Positions 15,952-20,951 of a stretch of 20,951 nucleotides of DNA are shown here, piece after piece (the first letter of the stretch is position 1; each line of letters opens with the position of its first letter). This DNA is from a virus, in IMG/VR virus record IMGVR_UViG_3300025082_000096, positions 1 to 20,951 of that record, one strand, 5' to 3'. Both the position numbers and the translations under genes were made by a program. The notes under the pieces are model-generated. The model ran no database searches, was not told where the DNA came from, and worked only from the letters and a program-made list of their open reading frames with translations.

Positions 15952-18198
15952 CTAACTTGCTGTTTGTCTAGATAACCCTAAGTTGAGTTTTTTACCAGTA
16001 TCATTATCACCATATATAACTCCATTTGGATAATCAAAAAGTACGCTTCCTAAGTCTCTTTCATTAAGTTTTAGTACTATTTGTATAGGCGTAGTGCTGG
16101 GCTTAGCTGCCGCGCGCGCCGGTTGGCCGCCCTGGTTGGCGAGAGCAGTTGGAGCACCTTTAGCAGCTTTGCCCATCCCCTCCATTAACCCTCTATCCAC
16201 TGTCGTTTTTGTCGCGCTTTTAACTTTGTCAGCTGAAACAACATATTCACCTTTTTGTAGCATATGAGGGCCATCTTCTTCTACGGGGCCTCCATCATGC
16301 ATAGTTTTCCACTTTTTATCAAACTGTTGCTTTGATAACTTTCCTGGTGTGGATCCAAAAGCTCCGCTTACCTTCTCTCCAGCCTCTTCAGCTGAATCTC
16401 CCCACCAGCCAAAATGTTTGGTAAGCCATGCTATACCAGCTATGATAGCTGTAATTGCTGCCACTATCGCAGTCCAACCTATCGCTGTTAATGCTATGGC
16501 AGCTGCAGTCGTTGCACCAGCGAGGGCTGTCTTTGCAGCTGCCCATGCCCATATCCAACCCTGTACAATCTTGATGCCAGTCCACATCGCTTTTAACAAC
16601 GGTAAGAAAAGACCTACCTTCATCATAAACCCAGCAATAATCATTGTCCAGAAAAATGTTACCTTGCCGCCTTCGCTCATCCCGTTAATAAATCCTGTAA
16701 TCGAAACCACGGCCGATCTTATTGATTCAATAAATGGTTTCATTTCTATGACAAGTCCCATCATAGCAAATTTAAGTTCATCAAACATTGTAGTTGCTTT
16801 ATGTGCCATCTCAGATAGATTTTTTTCTTTGTCTGCTGCTATTTGTGCTTCTTTTTGTATTTTCTTGTACTCTGATGCAGAGCTGCCAAGCAGTTTCATA
16901 GCTTCGGCCTGATCAGTGATCCCTGCAGCGTTCATAACACTCAATTGTGCATGGTGTCCCAAATTTTTAAACACTGTTCCAGACTGTTTAAGACTCTTTC
17001 GAACCTCCTCTATTCTTTCGTCCTCTTTCATCATGACCATTTCAATGCTGTTTAGGTAAGGTCCTCCTAATATACCGTTTAACCTTGCAACAGCCTCGGC
17101 AGAACTATCAAATGTATCAAACTTTTCTGCCACTCCCAATAATGTATCCATTGACGCTCCAGTGGCTCGAACTTGAGCTTGTAGATTAATGAACACCTTC
17201 TCCATCTGTGGGCCGCGTGAAGCTAGTTTTTTTGACGCCGTAACAAACTCTGAATAAAACTGGTTTAAAGGAACATCTAATTTTTCTGCTACCTTAGCAA
17301 ATTTCTTAAGTTCTGATGTACCCTTTTTTCCGAGTACTTTGGTGAAAACATCGAAGGCAGCAGCTGTTGTATTAGAACTCACCCCTGCTTGTTCAAGTTT
17401 CGCAACCGTGTCTATTATTTCGTCCCTGGCATCACCTTGAGCATTTTTAAAAGCCACTGAAGTTGATATCAAGGCTTGCGATGCCTTATAAGCTGTCTCC
17501 ATATCAAGCCCTTGCTGTCTTAAAGCTTCACTAGCGCCCAACACTGAACTTGCCATTTCATCACTAGCCTGTGTTGCTTTGTGGAACCCGGCAACAAACT
17601 TGTCTTGCATGCCAATGATCTCTTCGGCTTTAGCAAGCATCATTGCTGCCATTCGATCCCCAATTTGTGCAAAAGCATTCCCTACTATCTCTCCTGTAGA
17701 CTTGCCTTCCTCTTTCAGTTTCGCAAATGTTGCTTGAAGATTCTTCATCTTGGCGCCAATATTTAAAAGTCCGCCTGTCCACGTGGCACTAAGTTTCGCT
17801 CCAAAGCCAACAAGCGCCATAACTTTATTGCCCCATGAATCAAACTCACCAGAAAGTTCTTTAGTTGCTTCTATTTCTTTCTCAATCGCTTTAATACGCC
17901 CTAATCTAGCTTTAAGTTCTTCTTTTTCAGCCTCTGTCGTTTGCTGAAGTGCCCGTAGTTCATCCTCGCTCAGAGCTAGCAATTCTCGGCGCACTTCTAG
18001 TTCTTTCATTTTTGCGAGGTAGGCCTGTTCGTCAATTTCTCCAAGTGCTAATTTCTGACTGTACTCTACTTCGAGTGCGGCGGTTCTATCTTTGACTGCC
18101 TTTCGATTATTTATTATCGCAGCTGTTATAGCCTCTTCAGCTTTAAGCGCAGCAAGTTGTTTTTCTAGTTTTTGTTGTCCAGTTTCTTCTTCAGCCAT
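15952..18198 (-). CDS. Tail tape measure protein
   Basis: Sets tail length and is likely ejected through the tube to help DNA cross the host envelope. The protein is 748 aa. Residues 1-~110 are highly charged coiled coil (Lys/Glu/Ala/Leu). A long helical body follows, with KLSATWTGGLLNIGAKMKNL and phage-tape-type TAAAFDVFTKVLG segments. A strongly hydrophobic block lies at ~509-597 (FFWTMIIAGFMMKVGLFLPL through IAAITAIIAGIAWL-like stretches), the usual membrane-active part. The tail DGGPVEEDGPHMLQKGEYVV is typical of tape measure C-termini. At about 0.15 nm per residue it predicts a tail of roughly 110 nm, close to T4. AGGGG precedes ATG 18198. It is the largest gene after the overlapping chaperone-type pair, as expected. 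Confidence 0.93.
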   Translation of the reverse strand: MAEEETGQQKLEKQLAALKAEEAITAAIINNRKAVKDRTAALEVEYSQKLALGEIDEQAYLAKMKELEVRRELLALSEDELRALQQTTEAEKEELKARLGRIKAIEKEIEATKELSGEFDSWGNKVMALVGFGAKLSATWTGGLLNIGAKMKNLQATFAKLKEEGKSTGEIVGNAFAQIGDRMAAMMLAKAEEIIGMQDKFVAGFHKATQASDEMASSVLGASEALRQQGLDMETAYKASQALISTSVAFKNAQGDARDEIIDTVAKLEQAGVSSNTTAAAFDVFTKVLGKKGTSELKKFAKVAEKLDVPLNQFYSEFVTASKKLASRGPQMEKVFINLQAQVRATGASMDTLLGVAEKFDTFDSSAEAVARLNGILGGPYLNSIEMVMMKEDERIEEVRKSLKQSGTVFKNLGHHAQLSVMNAAGITDQAEAMKLLGSSASEYKKIQKEAQIAADKEKNLSEMAHKATTMFDELKFAMMGLVIEMKPFIESIRSAVVSITGFINGMSEGGKVTFFWTMIIAGFMMKVGLFLPLLKAMWTGIKIVQGWIWAWAAAKTALAGATTAAAIALTAIGWTAIVAAITAIIAGIAWLTKHFGWWGDSAEEAGEKVSGAFGSTPGKLSKQQFDKKWKTMHDGGPVEEDGPHMLQKGEYVVSADKVKSATKTTVDRGLMEGMGKAAKGAPTALANQGGQPARAAAKPSTTPIQIVLKLNERDLGSVLFDYPNGVIYGDNDTGKKLNLGLSRQTAS

Positions 18199-18210
18199 TT
18201 AAATTATCCC

Positions 18211-18537
18211 CTATTTAAATGGCCACTTCAAGCCAGTTGAAACCTCAAATGTTCTCACTGCTTTATCTAAAGCATGTTTTGAGGTAAAAGTTTCAGTACT
18301 GTTTAAGCCATTTGTCATATATGAATCCATATATTTTTTTTCTGAAGTTAGCGCGGCCATAAAAGCCTTAATTTGTGGAGGCTCGCCTCGTACTCTTAAA
18401 GCATTACCAAAAATTCCTGGTGCAAACATTCTCTCAAGAGACATCTTTATGAGCGCACCGTATTGAGTCAGCATGCTCTCATTTAATTGACCATTCTTTG
18501 CAACAGTTAAATCTAATATTTTATCTTCAAAATTCAT
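18211..18537 (-). CDS. 108-aa hypothetical tail-module protein
   Basis: Not recognised. It is soluble and mostly helical by pattern, with no signal peptide, membrane segment or cysteine. The stretch MFAPGIFGNALRVRGEPPQIKAFMAAL (starting near residue 37) looks like a conserved core, and the C-terminus reads FEVSTGLKWPFK. It lies between the chaperone-type pair and tape measure, 12 nt before the latter, with GAGG about 9 nt before ATG 18537. A small role in tail assembly is likely from position alone. Confidence 0.7.
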   Translation of the reverse strand: MNFEDKILDLTVAKNGQLNESMLTQYGALIKMSLERMFAPGIFGNALRVRGEPPQIKAFMAALTSEKKYMDSYMTNGLNSTETFTSKHALDKAVRTFEVSTGLKWPFK

Positions 18538-18578: not shown

Positions 18579-18598
18579 ACTAAATTATTACTAAATTA
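18579..18598 (-). repeat. Short direct repeat in the AT-rich gap before the 108-aa gene
   Basis: The 9-mer TAATTTAGT (minus strand) occurs twice with an 11-bp period (plus-strand ACTAAATTA at 18579-18587 and 18590-18598). The second copy overlaps the stop codon of the 69-aa frame. The spacing is about one helical turn. It is too short to assign a role. Confidence 0.4.
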
Positions 18599-18805
18599 AC
18601 GCTTCTGAGAATTTTCCGATTGGGCGCGTTCACTTTCGATTTGTTTCAAGAGCCTTTTTGCGAACCAATTTCGCACTTTAACAGGCAAACTGTACGCTTC
18701 GGTAAAGCTCCATCCTCCATGATACTTCATAAAGAAGAACATTTCATACACCTGTTCTATGTATTCTTCACTTAGGCCAAAAAAACGCGGTAGTAAAAGG
18801 AACAT
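18596..18805 (-). CDS. 69-aa overlapping frame, probable frameshift extension of the gp26-like gene
   Basis: The frame overlaps the gp26-like gene by 38 nt, in the +1 (equivalently -2) frame. ATG 18805 has no Shine-Dalgarno, which argues against independent initiation. After the overlap it reads GLSEEYIEQVYEMFFFMKYHGGWSFTEAYSLPVKVRNWFAKRLL, amphipathic and aromatic, then a charged tail. In myovirus order it sits exactly where the T part of a G/GT-type tail chaperone is found, just before tape measure. A frameshift at the seven-T run would give a fusion of about 342 residues. It could instead be translated alone by coupling. It is conserved-looking and clearly not a random shadow, since it extends 170 nt beyond the upstream stop. 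Confidence 0.7.
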   Translation of the reverse strand: MFLLLPRFFGLSEEYIEQVYEMFFFMKYHGGWSFTEAYSLPVKVRNWFAKRLLKQIESERAQSENSQKR

Positions 18806-19625
18806 CTATTGTAGAAGATGCACTGCATTCTTGACATTCAAAGTCGCACTCCATTTGAATATTTGGTGCTATTTCCGTATAAACTTTTCTTAAATACCTA
18901 GAATCGTATGCCGGCATATTGTTCACAAATGAACTAATGACATCCTTTTTTCCTTCGCCGTTAACTGAAACAACAAATAATTTAATCTGATCCGTTGAAA
19001 GAGATTCTGGTAAATTATGTTTCTTTCTGTTTTCGCTTGAAAGCAAATACCCTTTTTCGTCTCTTCCAGTTAATAACTTGACCTCAACATTTACTTTAGA
19101 GCGTGGAAGGTGAATAATGAATGTGTTGTTCTGTGTTTTTTCAATATTAAGATCTTCCAGCAAACGTTCATCAAACTTGTTTGTTTTCAAGTTAGATAAA
19201 TCAATCACATGCGAATTTGTACTCGAACAATTCGGACAAGTCAACGACACTTCATAGTCTTCTCCGTATCCAGTTATTCTGGCAGCTACTACTAATGCAT
19301 TTTTATCACCAACATACAAATCATCTATTTTAATTGATTTATCAATTATTATATTCTCAAGCAAGCGATCAATGGCAATTCCTTTCTTCAATAGAGTCTG
19401 AGAAGTTAAGATATCCTCATCTTTCGCTGTCATATATCGAATTTCAATTGAGTCTTGGTTATGTAAAGGGTGACCATCAGGATAGAACAGTCCGCCACTT
19501 GGCAAGTCAACAAAGTCAGTTGGGGTTGTAAAAGAAAAATCACCTGACTTGTTTGATTGTTCTACAGGGGCATCCGCATCGGGATTTGAAACACCTAAAC
19601 GCGTTTCATTATTTCTAGCTGACAT
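18768..19625 (-). CDS. T4 gp26-like baseplate/tail-assembly protein with zinc ribbon
   Basis: A 285-aa member of the T4 gp26-type family. Core features: a start of the family pattern at FVDLPSGGLFYP (38-49), IRYMTAKDEDILTSQTLLKKG (62-82) and DRLLENII (86-93). These are followed by Cys130-PN-Cys133 and, far downstream, Cys264-QE-Cys267, which together make a plausible four-cysteine zinc ribbon. The ~35-residue N-terminal leader is polar and probably disordered. T4 gp26 is needed for hub assembly. Here the gene sits between tail tube and tape measure with an overlapping short frame at its 3' end, which points to a tail-assembly chaperone role. GAGGT lies just upstream of ATG 19625. Confidence 0.82.
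   Translation of the reverse strand: MSARNNETRLGVSNPDADAPVEQSNKSGDFSFTTPTDFVDLPSGGLFYPDGHPLHNQDSIEIRYMTAKDEDILTSQTLLKKGIAIDRLLENIIIDKSIKIDDLYVGDKNALVVAARITGYGEDYEVSLTCPNCSSTNSHVIDLSNLKTNKFDERLLEDLNIEKTQNNTFIIHLPRSKVNVEVKLLTGRDEKGYLLSSENRKKHNLPESLSTDQIKLFVVSVNGEGKKDVISSFVNNMPAYDSRYLRKVYTEIAPNIQMECDFECQECSASSTIDVPFTTAFFWPK
18779..18785 (-). other. Candidate programmed frameshift site (seven-T run)
   Basis: Within the 38-nt overlap, the minus strand reads GCG TTT TTT TGG in the gp26-like frame. A +1 or -2 slip of the Phe tRNA on the homopolymer re-pairs perfectly and enters the 69-aa frame. The run lies five codons before the zero-frame stop, a typical setting for tail-chaperone frameshifts. 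Confidence 0.5.
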
Positions 19626-19639
19626 TTATACCTCTTCTT

Positions 19640-20152
19640 TTAGTGTATTGTAGCATAATCATATTGTAATGTTAAGGTAATTTCTACCATCTCATCACTA
19701 GTATAATCTAAATCTCCAAACTTAACAGATTGGATCCATGGGTTCCAAAGTTTAAAAACTTCAATCACTTTGTTACCGGCGCCAAGCTGTTCTAATCTCA
19801 CTTGTCCATTCAAAACGCCGGTGGCGCCCTTCTTTGACAATGTGTATGCAGCGTCATTAGTAGTGTTGTCGGGAGTTCGATATCCACCGCGAGTTAAAGA
19901 CTTATATAACTCATGACCTACAAACGGATCAACTGGGTCAACCAAAGTTATATCGACAGGATCCCATGTAACAATTCCAGGATAATAGAACTTATGTCCA
20001 AAGTACATATGTTCTGCTGCGTTAACTGTAAACGAAGGCTTCGCTGCTGTCTTTATAACATAAACAGGAATGTCTGTTTGTCCTAAGTACAAGAGCCATC
20101 TATGTTTTCTTTTTGGTTCTAAACCTTTATCTGCCCAAAATTTCTCTGCCAT
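19640..20152 (-). CDS. Tail tube protein, T4 gp19 family
   Basis: Builds the inner tube of the contractile tail through which DNA passes. At 170 aa it matches gp19 (about 163). The N-terminal FWADKGLEPKRKHRWLLYLG (5-24) is the gp19-type start. Strand-forming segments follow (VYVIKTAAKPSFTV, WDPVDITLVDP), with the C-terminal WNPWIQSVKFGDLDYTSDEMVEITLTLQYDYA typical of the tube fold. It lies directly after sheath, in the usual order. The ribosome site GGGAG is about 12 nt before ATG 20152. The 57-nt gap before it is very AT-rich. Confidence 0.9.
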   Translation of the reverse strand: MAEKFWADKGLEPKRKHRWLLYLGQTDIPVYVIKTAAKPSFTVNAAEHMYFGHKFYYPGIVTWDPVDITLVDPVDPFVGHELYKSLTRGGYRTPDNTTNDAAYTLSKKGATGVLNGQVRLEQLGAGNKVIEVFKLWNPWIQSVKFGDLDYTSDEMVEITLTLQYDYATIH

Positions 20153-20209: not shown

Positions 20210-20951
20210 TTAATCATCAAATGCAGCTCCAGTATCCGTAATAATGAAGTCAAGAGCGATGAATTCAATAGCTCTTGCAGGCTTCAAAAACACCTTAGCA
20301 TATAGAATATTTCTATCAATCATCTCTGGCGTTGTTGTAGTTTCATCGAGCACCACTTTAAAGTCAGTAAGACCGAATCCAGCTTTAATATCATTAAGGA
20401 AAGTTTCAACTTGAGTACTAAATTTATTCCAAGTTGCGCGTACATTTTGCTCGAACAATGTCGTTGCTGCAATTCGAGAAACTTGTTTCTTTGTATGAAT
20501 TAGCAGTCTACGAACATTAATTCTATCCAAAGCTGATGGAGTGACTTGAAGTGTTTTCTGTCCAAATATCACGATCCCTTCAGCTGGGAATGAGGCAATT
20601 GGATTAACGTTTGCAGAATAAAGCCTGTCTCTGTCTTGAGAAGTAAGATGTTGTCGAACTCCTATAACATTGAGACCAGATGCACCCATAGACAATCCGC
20701 CTCTTGTGAAGCCGGCGGGAGCAAACCAAAGTGCTCTTTCTGCTTCACTGAAAGACATTACTCCGAGAGCAACAACAGAAGGAGGCATCCAAAGAATAGC
20801 GTCTGAAAGAGAATCTCTAACTTGTACCCATGGATAATAAGCGCATCCATAACTGGTGTTCAAATTTCTATTTTTCATCTCTGTTACAGCTTGATCCACA
20901 TCTCCTCTGCGTGCAGTTTCTGAGTCTGTGCCTTCTGAATCGGCAATGTGA
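20210..20951 (-). CDS. Contractile tail sheath protein, C-terminal part (5' end cut by window)
   Basis: Forms the contractile sheath around the tail tube. The frame is open to the window edge, so about 246 C-terminal residues are visible. The GTG at 20899 is internal, because the upstream codons read through without a stop and look sheath-like (DSETARRGDVDQAV). Diagnostic segments are SYGCAYYPWVQVRD, PAGFTRGGL, NPIASFPAEGIVIFGQKTL, LDRINVRRLLIHTKKQVSRIA and LFEQNVRATWNKF. These form the conserved C-terminal sheath domain that contacts the tube and carries the inter-subunit arm. Tail tube follows at once, as in most myoviruses. Confidence 0.93.
   Translation of the reverse strand, partial: HIADSEGTDSETARRGDVDQAVTEMKNRNLNTSYGCAYYPWVQVRDSLSDAILWMPPSVVALGVMSFSEAERALWFAPAGFTRGGLSMGASGLNVIGVRQHLTSQDRDRLYSANVNPIASFPAEGIVIFGQKTLQVTPSALDRINVRRLLIHTKKQVSRIAATTLFEQNVRATWNKFSTQVETFLNDIKAGFGLTDFKVVLDETTTTPEMIDRNILYAKVFLKPARAIEFIALDFIITDTGAAFDD

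Follow-up and report, generated by a model that had tools for sequence, protein, structure and literature searches.

A tail gene cluster on the minus strand of a viral contig (IMG/VR record IMGVR_UViG_3300025082_000096; the window, i.e. the whole stretch analysed, measures 20,951 nucleotides) raises the question of how a short reading frame that overlaps the end of a gp26-like gene is expressed. It could encode a separate small protein, or it could be joined to the gp26-like protein by a programmed frameshift, in which case the direction of the shift and the role of the products have to be considered as well. An earlier note on this DNA proposed a frameshift by +1 or -2 at a run of seven Ts. 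Our comparison of related loci indicates that this is very probably one gene read in two ways by a +1 slip, similar to lambda G/GT, and that the two forms are likely tape-measure chaperones.

Features of the locus are listed in Table 1. The gp26-like protein scores 52.3 bits against PF12322, above the curated Pfam cut-off of 24.5, and its gene ends in the 0 frame with GTT CCT TTT ACT ACC GCG TTT TTT TGG CCT AAG TGA. Several elements described in the earlier note are readily recovered: the ORF coordinates of the 69-aa frame and the gp26-like gene overlap, no Shine-Dalgarno sequence precedes the ATG of the 69-aa ORF (the bases upstream are GTGCATCTTCTACAATAG), and the overlap contains the seven-T run (18785-18779, minus strand), which begins five codons ahead of the gp26-like stop. 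The second frame (T) is +1 relative to the gp26 frame, and the ATG of the 69-aa ORF sits 27 nt 5' of the +1-frame GGC codon. A fusion of 342 residues had been expected for either direction. This is correct for a +1 slip at the run, which yields exactly 342 residues (...TTAFF-GLSEEYIEQVYEMFFFMKYHGGWSFTEAYSLPVKVRNWFAKRLLKQ... in the computed translation), but a -2 slip would give 343 residues due to one extra Phe. The local gene order is sheath, tube, gp26-like/T pair, 108-aa ORF and 748-aa ORF. As for the claimed order, sheath, tube and gp26-like genes are confirmed by phrog or Pfam matches, whereas family searches with the 748-aa ORF gave no match and its label as tape measure follows from position and size.

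Table 1. Coordinates of the gp26-like/T locus and its neighbours in the window
Feature	Coordinates	Strand	Basis
748-aa probable tape measure protein	15952..18198	-	position and size only
108-aa protein between T and the long ORF	18211..18537	-	homologues 3' of T in 71/238 loci
T domain, +1 frame, GGC to stop, 60 aa	18596..18778	-	+1 in 239/241 viral and 10/10 genome-assembly loci; DUF6760-like
69-aa ORF (+1 frame, carries T)	18596..18805	-	
342-aa fusion (GT form) via +1 slip	18596..19625	-	predicted
0-frame stop TGA of the gp26-like gene	18768..18770	-	sequence
gp26-like protein, short (G) form, 285 aa	18768..19625	-	PF12322 E 8e-14, phrog_150 E 3e-17; AlphaFold2 pLDDT 90.7, pTM 0.83 (gp26-only alignment)
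CCT directly after the shift site TTT TTT TGG	18774-18776	-	
Shift site TTT TTT TGG	18777..18785	-	near-invariant in 97 clusters; synonymous constraint
ATG assumed earlier to start the 69-aa ORF; probably unused	18803..18805	-	without Shine-Dalgarno; ATG here in only 5/97 clusters
Tail tube protein	19640..20152	-	phrog_4542 E 1e-24
Tail sheath protein, C-terminal part, runs past the window edge	20210..20950	-	phrog_23 E 1e-56

About 250 relatives were collected in four scans, three covering viral contigs and the fourth genome assemblies, and the loci with both parts were recognised among them by profiles for the gp26 part and the T part; dereplication at 80% over 300 nt resulted in 97 clusters. 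Among the 241 viral loci having both parts, 239 place T in the +1 frame with an overlap of the gp26 end; the 10 genome-assembly loci whose gene end is complete all have T in the +1 frame too. Judged by sequence comparison, a pattern kept in 249 out of 251 relatives is far beyond chance, and the existence of two frames and their fixed +1 relation are established. The surroundings are similar across relatives as well, with sheath and tube upstream and a long ORF downstream (at least 400 aa in all 152 loci with enough downstream sequence).

Two of the viral loci are exceptions. In one, the jumbo phage L005, TAATG may provide the start of T; this is the single occurrence of a separate second gene with its own start, a pattern that the earlier note had set against its own proposal. 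In the other (L020) the T frame is broken after the site. This locus was considered as a -1 exception and rejected: since its +1 frame reads GQVNSEYI like the relatives and then breaks, a small insertion behind the site seems more likely than another type of shift. A complete gp26-like/T pair is also present in the 2.8 Mb assembly of a WOR-3 bacterium chromosome (L250, CP070664.1), and this copy would belong to a prophage or, alternatively, to a phage that was misbinned. Gene prediction tends to miss or shorten T: the GenBank annotation of Flavobacterium phage immuto (L001, 4701-4943) cuts it to a 36-codon ORF, and that of Microcystis phage Mel-JY01 (L002, 4773-5009) has it as a separate hypothetical gene.

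Translation of T as a separate small protein, with initiation (internal or coupled) within the gp26 gene and no frameshift, would be in line with the ATG in the T frame of the window, with the TAATG of L005 and with the ATGA or GTGA overlaps of some injection systems. It would also fit a purine block resembling a Shine-Dalgarno sequence (SD-like) that precedes the slip codon by 18-33 nt in 73/97 clusters and is kept by synonymous codon choice: Glu codons in the block are GAG in 106/151 cases (70%) against 509/1836 (28%) elsewhere in the gene. However, the comparison also establishes that a T start codon is absent in many relatives. No ATG, GTG or TTG occurs in the T frame of 34 clusters, and because the SD-like block is present in 27 of these it is not simply the ribosome site of T. 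In addition, the Gly-Leu right after the slip is conserved, and in 11 clusters the T frame opens just 9 nt ahead of the slip. Separate initiation is consequently very unlikely in our view. Frames that lack a start, or that open so close to the slip, place the shift within the few codons holding TTT TTT T.

The junction TTT TTT TGG CCT is almost frozen among the relatives. TTT serves as the slip codon in 86 of the 97 clusters, CTT in 8 and CTA in 3; the slip codon is preceded by TTT (91), TTC (3) or CTT (3) and followed by TGG (93), TAC (3) or TTC (1), after which comes CCT (95), ACT (1) or GTT (1). The Phe slip codon is never TTC (0/86), against 13-32% TTC at five further Phe columns conserved in these genes, and the Pro after the site is CCT in 95/95, against 20-38% at other conserved Pro columns (Fisher 4e-8 and 2e-45, respectively, shared ancestry not being corrected for). 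CCT is frozen because its third position doubles as the second position of the T-frame Leu codon in Gly-Leu, and this Leu is retained even where Thr or Val replaces the gp26 residue. The entropy at each codon position follows the gp26 frame before the site and the T frame after it. Selection on the site is thereby established from the alignments; that slippage takes place, and how often, is inferred. With a fixed +1 relation and selection on the site, the comparative evidence for the programmed frameshift proposed earlier is strong, close to the most that an alignment of relatives can offer.

To compare the possible directions, we determined for each cluster if one tRNA can re-pair without mismatch at +1 and at -2. 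At +1 this is the case in 97/97 clusters, at -2 in 91/97. A -2 shift, in which tRNA-Phe steps back by two of the seven Ts and reaches the same T frame with one more Phe, is thus feasible in most relatives, and phage Mu uses -2 (PMC5009743). It would also account for the observation that the Phe codon in the E site likewise avoids TTC (3/94). P-site slippage by +1 alone does not need such avoidance, which counts against our best explanation. Nevertheless, the six remaining clusters (three with TTC TTT TGG and three with TTT CTA) cannot re-pair at -2 and still retain the T frame. The direction is therefore probably +1, which we clearly prefer, and a -2 shift seems unlikely; for the TTTTTTT majority we infer +1 rather than -2. 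Of the two directions that had been offered, +1 is thus the favoured one, and it would be an example of a shift other than -1, as had been suggested.

A third option is that RNA polymerase slips on the T run, such that part of the mRNA has an extra or missing base. Most relatives do have the seven-T run, but seven bases is short for polymerase slippage in bacteria. Moreover, 14/97 clusters interrupt the run (CTT, CTA and TTC variants) and yet keep both frames, which argues against this option and makes it extremely improbable. The alignment of the overlap suggested in the earlier note confirms conservation of the frame, and of the T run in most relatives. Loss of the homopolymer with both frames kept, named there as evidence against the proposal, does occur in these 14 clusters, but their site is still +1-slippery. 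This refutes the homopolymer mechanism and not the frameshift.

Regarding possible stimulators, the 60 nt downstream of the site are no different from control and give no indication of a 3' stimulatory structure. This result weighs against the best explanation, and so does the SD-like block 18-33 nt upstream in relatives, which the mechanism does not account for and which is absent from the window itself.

How does the locus compare with known frameshift systems? As in lambda gpG/gpGT, two overlapping frames are located between the tube and tape measure genes (the latter here by position and size), the overlap carries a conserved slippery site, and a short form is accompanied by a predicted frameshifted long form with a C-terminal T part; the second frame lacks its own start in about one third of the clusters and has an ATG without ribosome site in the window. 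Unlike lambda, the G part is PF12322, without sequence relation, and the second frame is +1, with a site of a Phe or Leu codon before Trp, whereas lambda and related chaperones usually shift by -1. The re-pairing of CTT T to TTT in RF2 (prfB) has its counterpart in the CTT TGG variants found here, and the slip codon of the present site can re-pair at +1 in every cluster. However, the A site in RF2 is occupied by a stop codon and a Shine-Dalgarno sequence lies 3 nt upstream; here the A site holds Trp TGG, and most relatives have the more distant SD-like block instead. Probable or shown +1 shifts in tail genes have been described for archaeal virus HSTV-2 and Listeria phage PSA (PMC5009743), but these concern other genes and the PSA site is a proline codon (CCC). 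A search of the open-access literature retrieved no report of a frameshift in gp26/PF12322. The locus appears to represent the known G/GT arrangement with a new protein family and a +1 site of the Phe/Leu-before-Trp type.

Other lineages display related patterns. Phages of Gram-positive hosts (SP-15, L330; LIS04, L006; GXN1, L004) and contig L331 have a +1 frame after Glu-Phe-Phe with a helix pattern similar to T; L331 has no start codon ahead of the conserved part, and both L331 and L004 match PF12322. In a separate PF12322 lineage (L249/L332 and L335, 73% nucleotide identity in the gp26 region) the same Asp-Phe-Phe place reads GAT TTT TTC, which provides the canonical -1 heptamer T_TTT_TTC, and T is in the -1 frame without a start codon (loci L249 3001-3663 and L332-L337). 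The same two parts would thus be joined by two shift directions.

Similar parts are observed in extracellular contractile injection systems. The T domain of the window scores 19.6 bits against DUF6760 (PF20546), below the curated cut-off of 27. In profile-profile comparison T reaches a probability of 94% and a score of 37 against DUF6760, where shuffles reach at most 18.6 (n=150, on the ungapped block; an earlier single column shuffle had an outlier of 127). The window T would thus be related to DUF6760 at the profile level only. No open-access literature on 'DUF6760' was found, and neither was DUF6760 in four genomes holding phage loci. The injection systems share the order sheath, tube, G, T, and the last 45 residues of their short G protein resemble the gp26 segment just before the slip (probability 92%, score 49; shuffles at most 29, n=30). 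Instead of a +1 frame, the gp26-like part and DUF6760 are fused in frame after ...QSFF in two Bacteroidota genomes (L262, L263), DUF6760 overlaps the short G protein in the -1 frame in L261, L264, Nostoc and Rhodococcus, and ATGA/GTGA overlaps are seen in Haloferax and Streptomyces. In L261, L264, L269 and L273 the -1 overlap with the G gene is at G GGG GA(A/G), and several loci with this motif lack an ATG, GTG or TTG ahead of the conserved DUF6760 block.

Structure prediction gave a well-defined model of the gp26-like protein (Table 1). The first AlphaFold model, of the fusion, was poor in the middle, probably because the short T rows diluted the alignment; it represents the T domain as helices 286-303, 307-311 and 315-341. 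A fold search with the fusion model and the good gp26 model returned no PDB match with E <0.001. The HK97 tail chaperone (2ob9) came up at E 3.7, which is not significant and no evidence of similarity, and sequence search gave no meaningful PDB relatives. That no known tail chaperone was matched structurally counts against the best explanation.

Taken as a mechanism, most ribosomes would halt at the gp26 stop and release the short form. Some would slip forward one base at TTT TTT TGG, where tRNA-Phe, with the Trp codon still unread in the A site, would leave its TTT and pair with the TTT one base further on; reading would then go on in the +1 frame (GGC CTA AGT...) and produce the long form with the C-terminal helical T domain. 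Both forms would most likely serve as tape measure chaperones in tail assembly, with the T domain recruiting tube subunits. Gene order and the homology to injection-system G/T pairs support such a function for gp26-family proteins, as the earlier note had suggested. If the frameshift is real, both forms might instead act in hub or baseplate assembly as in T4, whose gp26 and gp51 have been described as chaperones of hub assembly (PMC3004832). The position of the gene between tube and long ORF argues against this, and the T4 tape measure gp29 is itself a hub component, such that the two roles overlap. We regard a hub role as rather unlikely and retain that of tape measure chaperones.

T4 deserves separate attention, since a review describes G-T frameshifting as conserved in long-tailed phages 'except T4' (PMC5009743). 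Both T4 gp26 and gp51 belong to PF12322 and are paralogs (L088, 3803-4429 and 4480-5229; also L280-L328). The gp51 protein runs approximately 45 residues past its PF12322 match. This extension scores 22-26 against the injection-system DUF6760 profile, compared to at most 14.8 for shuffles (n=100-150) and 11.8 for four other gp51 segments; against the phage T profile it performs no better than shuffles. Unlike the pair described here, gp26 and gp51 are two separate genes, and to our knowledge they involve no frameshift. Given the paralogy and the resemblance of the gp51 extension to DUF6760/T, the data suggest that in T4 the two forms may come from separate genes, gp26 being the short one and gp51 the long one. 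It is about an even chance that the T4 exception vanishes altogether: gp26-family proteins would then be the G chaperones of many contractile tails, duplication would have replaced the frameshift in T4, and relatives among both phages and bacterial injection systems would reach T in several ways: a +1 or -1 slip, a fusion in frame, a coupled start or a duplication.

Summarizing, a short/long frameshift pair is identified in the family of T4 gp26, whose members carry the annotation of a hub part with an obscure role in the one phage group that a review names as lacking G-T frameshifting. The finding adds a widely conserved +1 site at which Phe or Leu codons would slip before a Trp codon, and it predicts that a large group of uncultured myoviruses makes a gp26-like tail protein in a short and a long form. 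The arrangement offers a direct test of the role of T4 gp26 and gp51 and, with it, a testable answer to the question why T4 seemed to be without the G-T arrangement.
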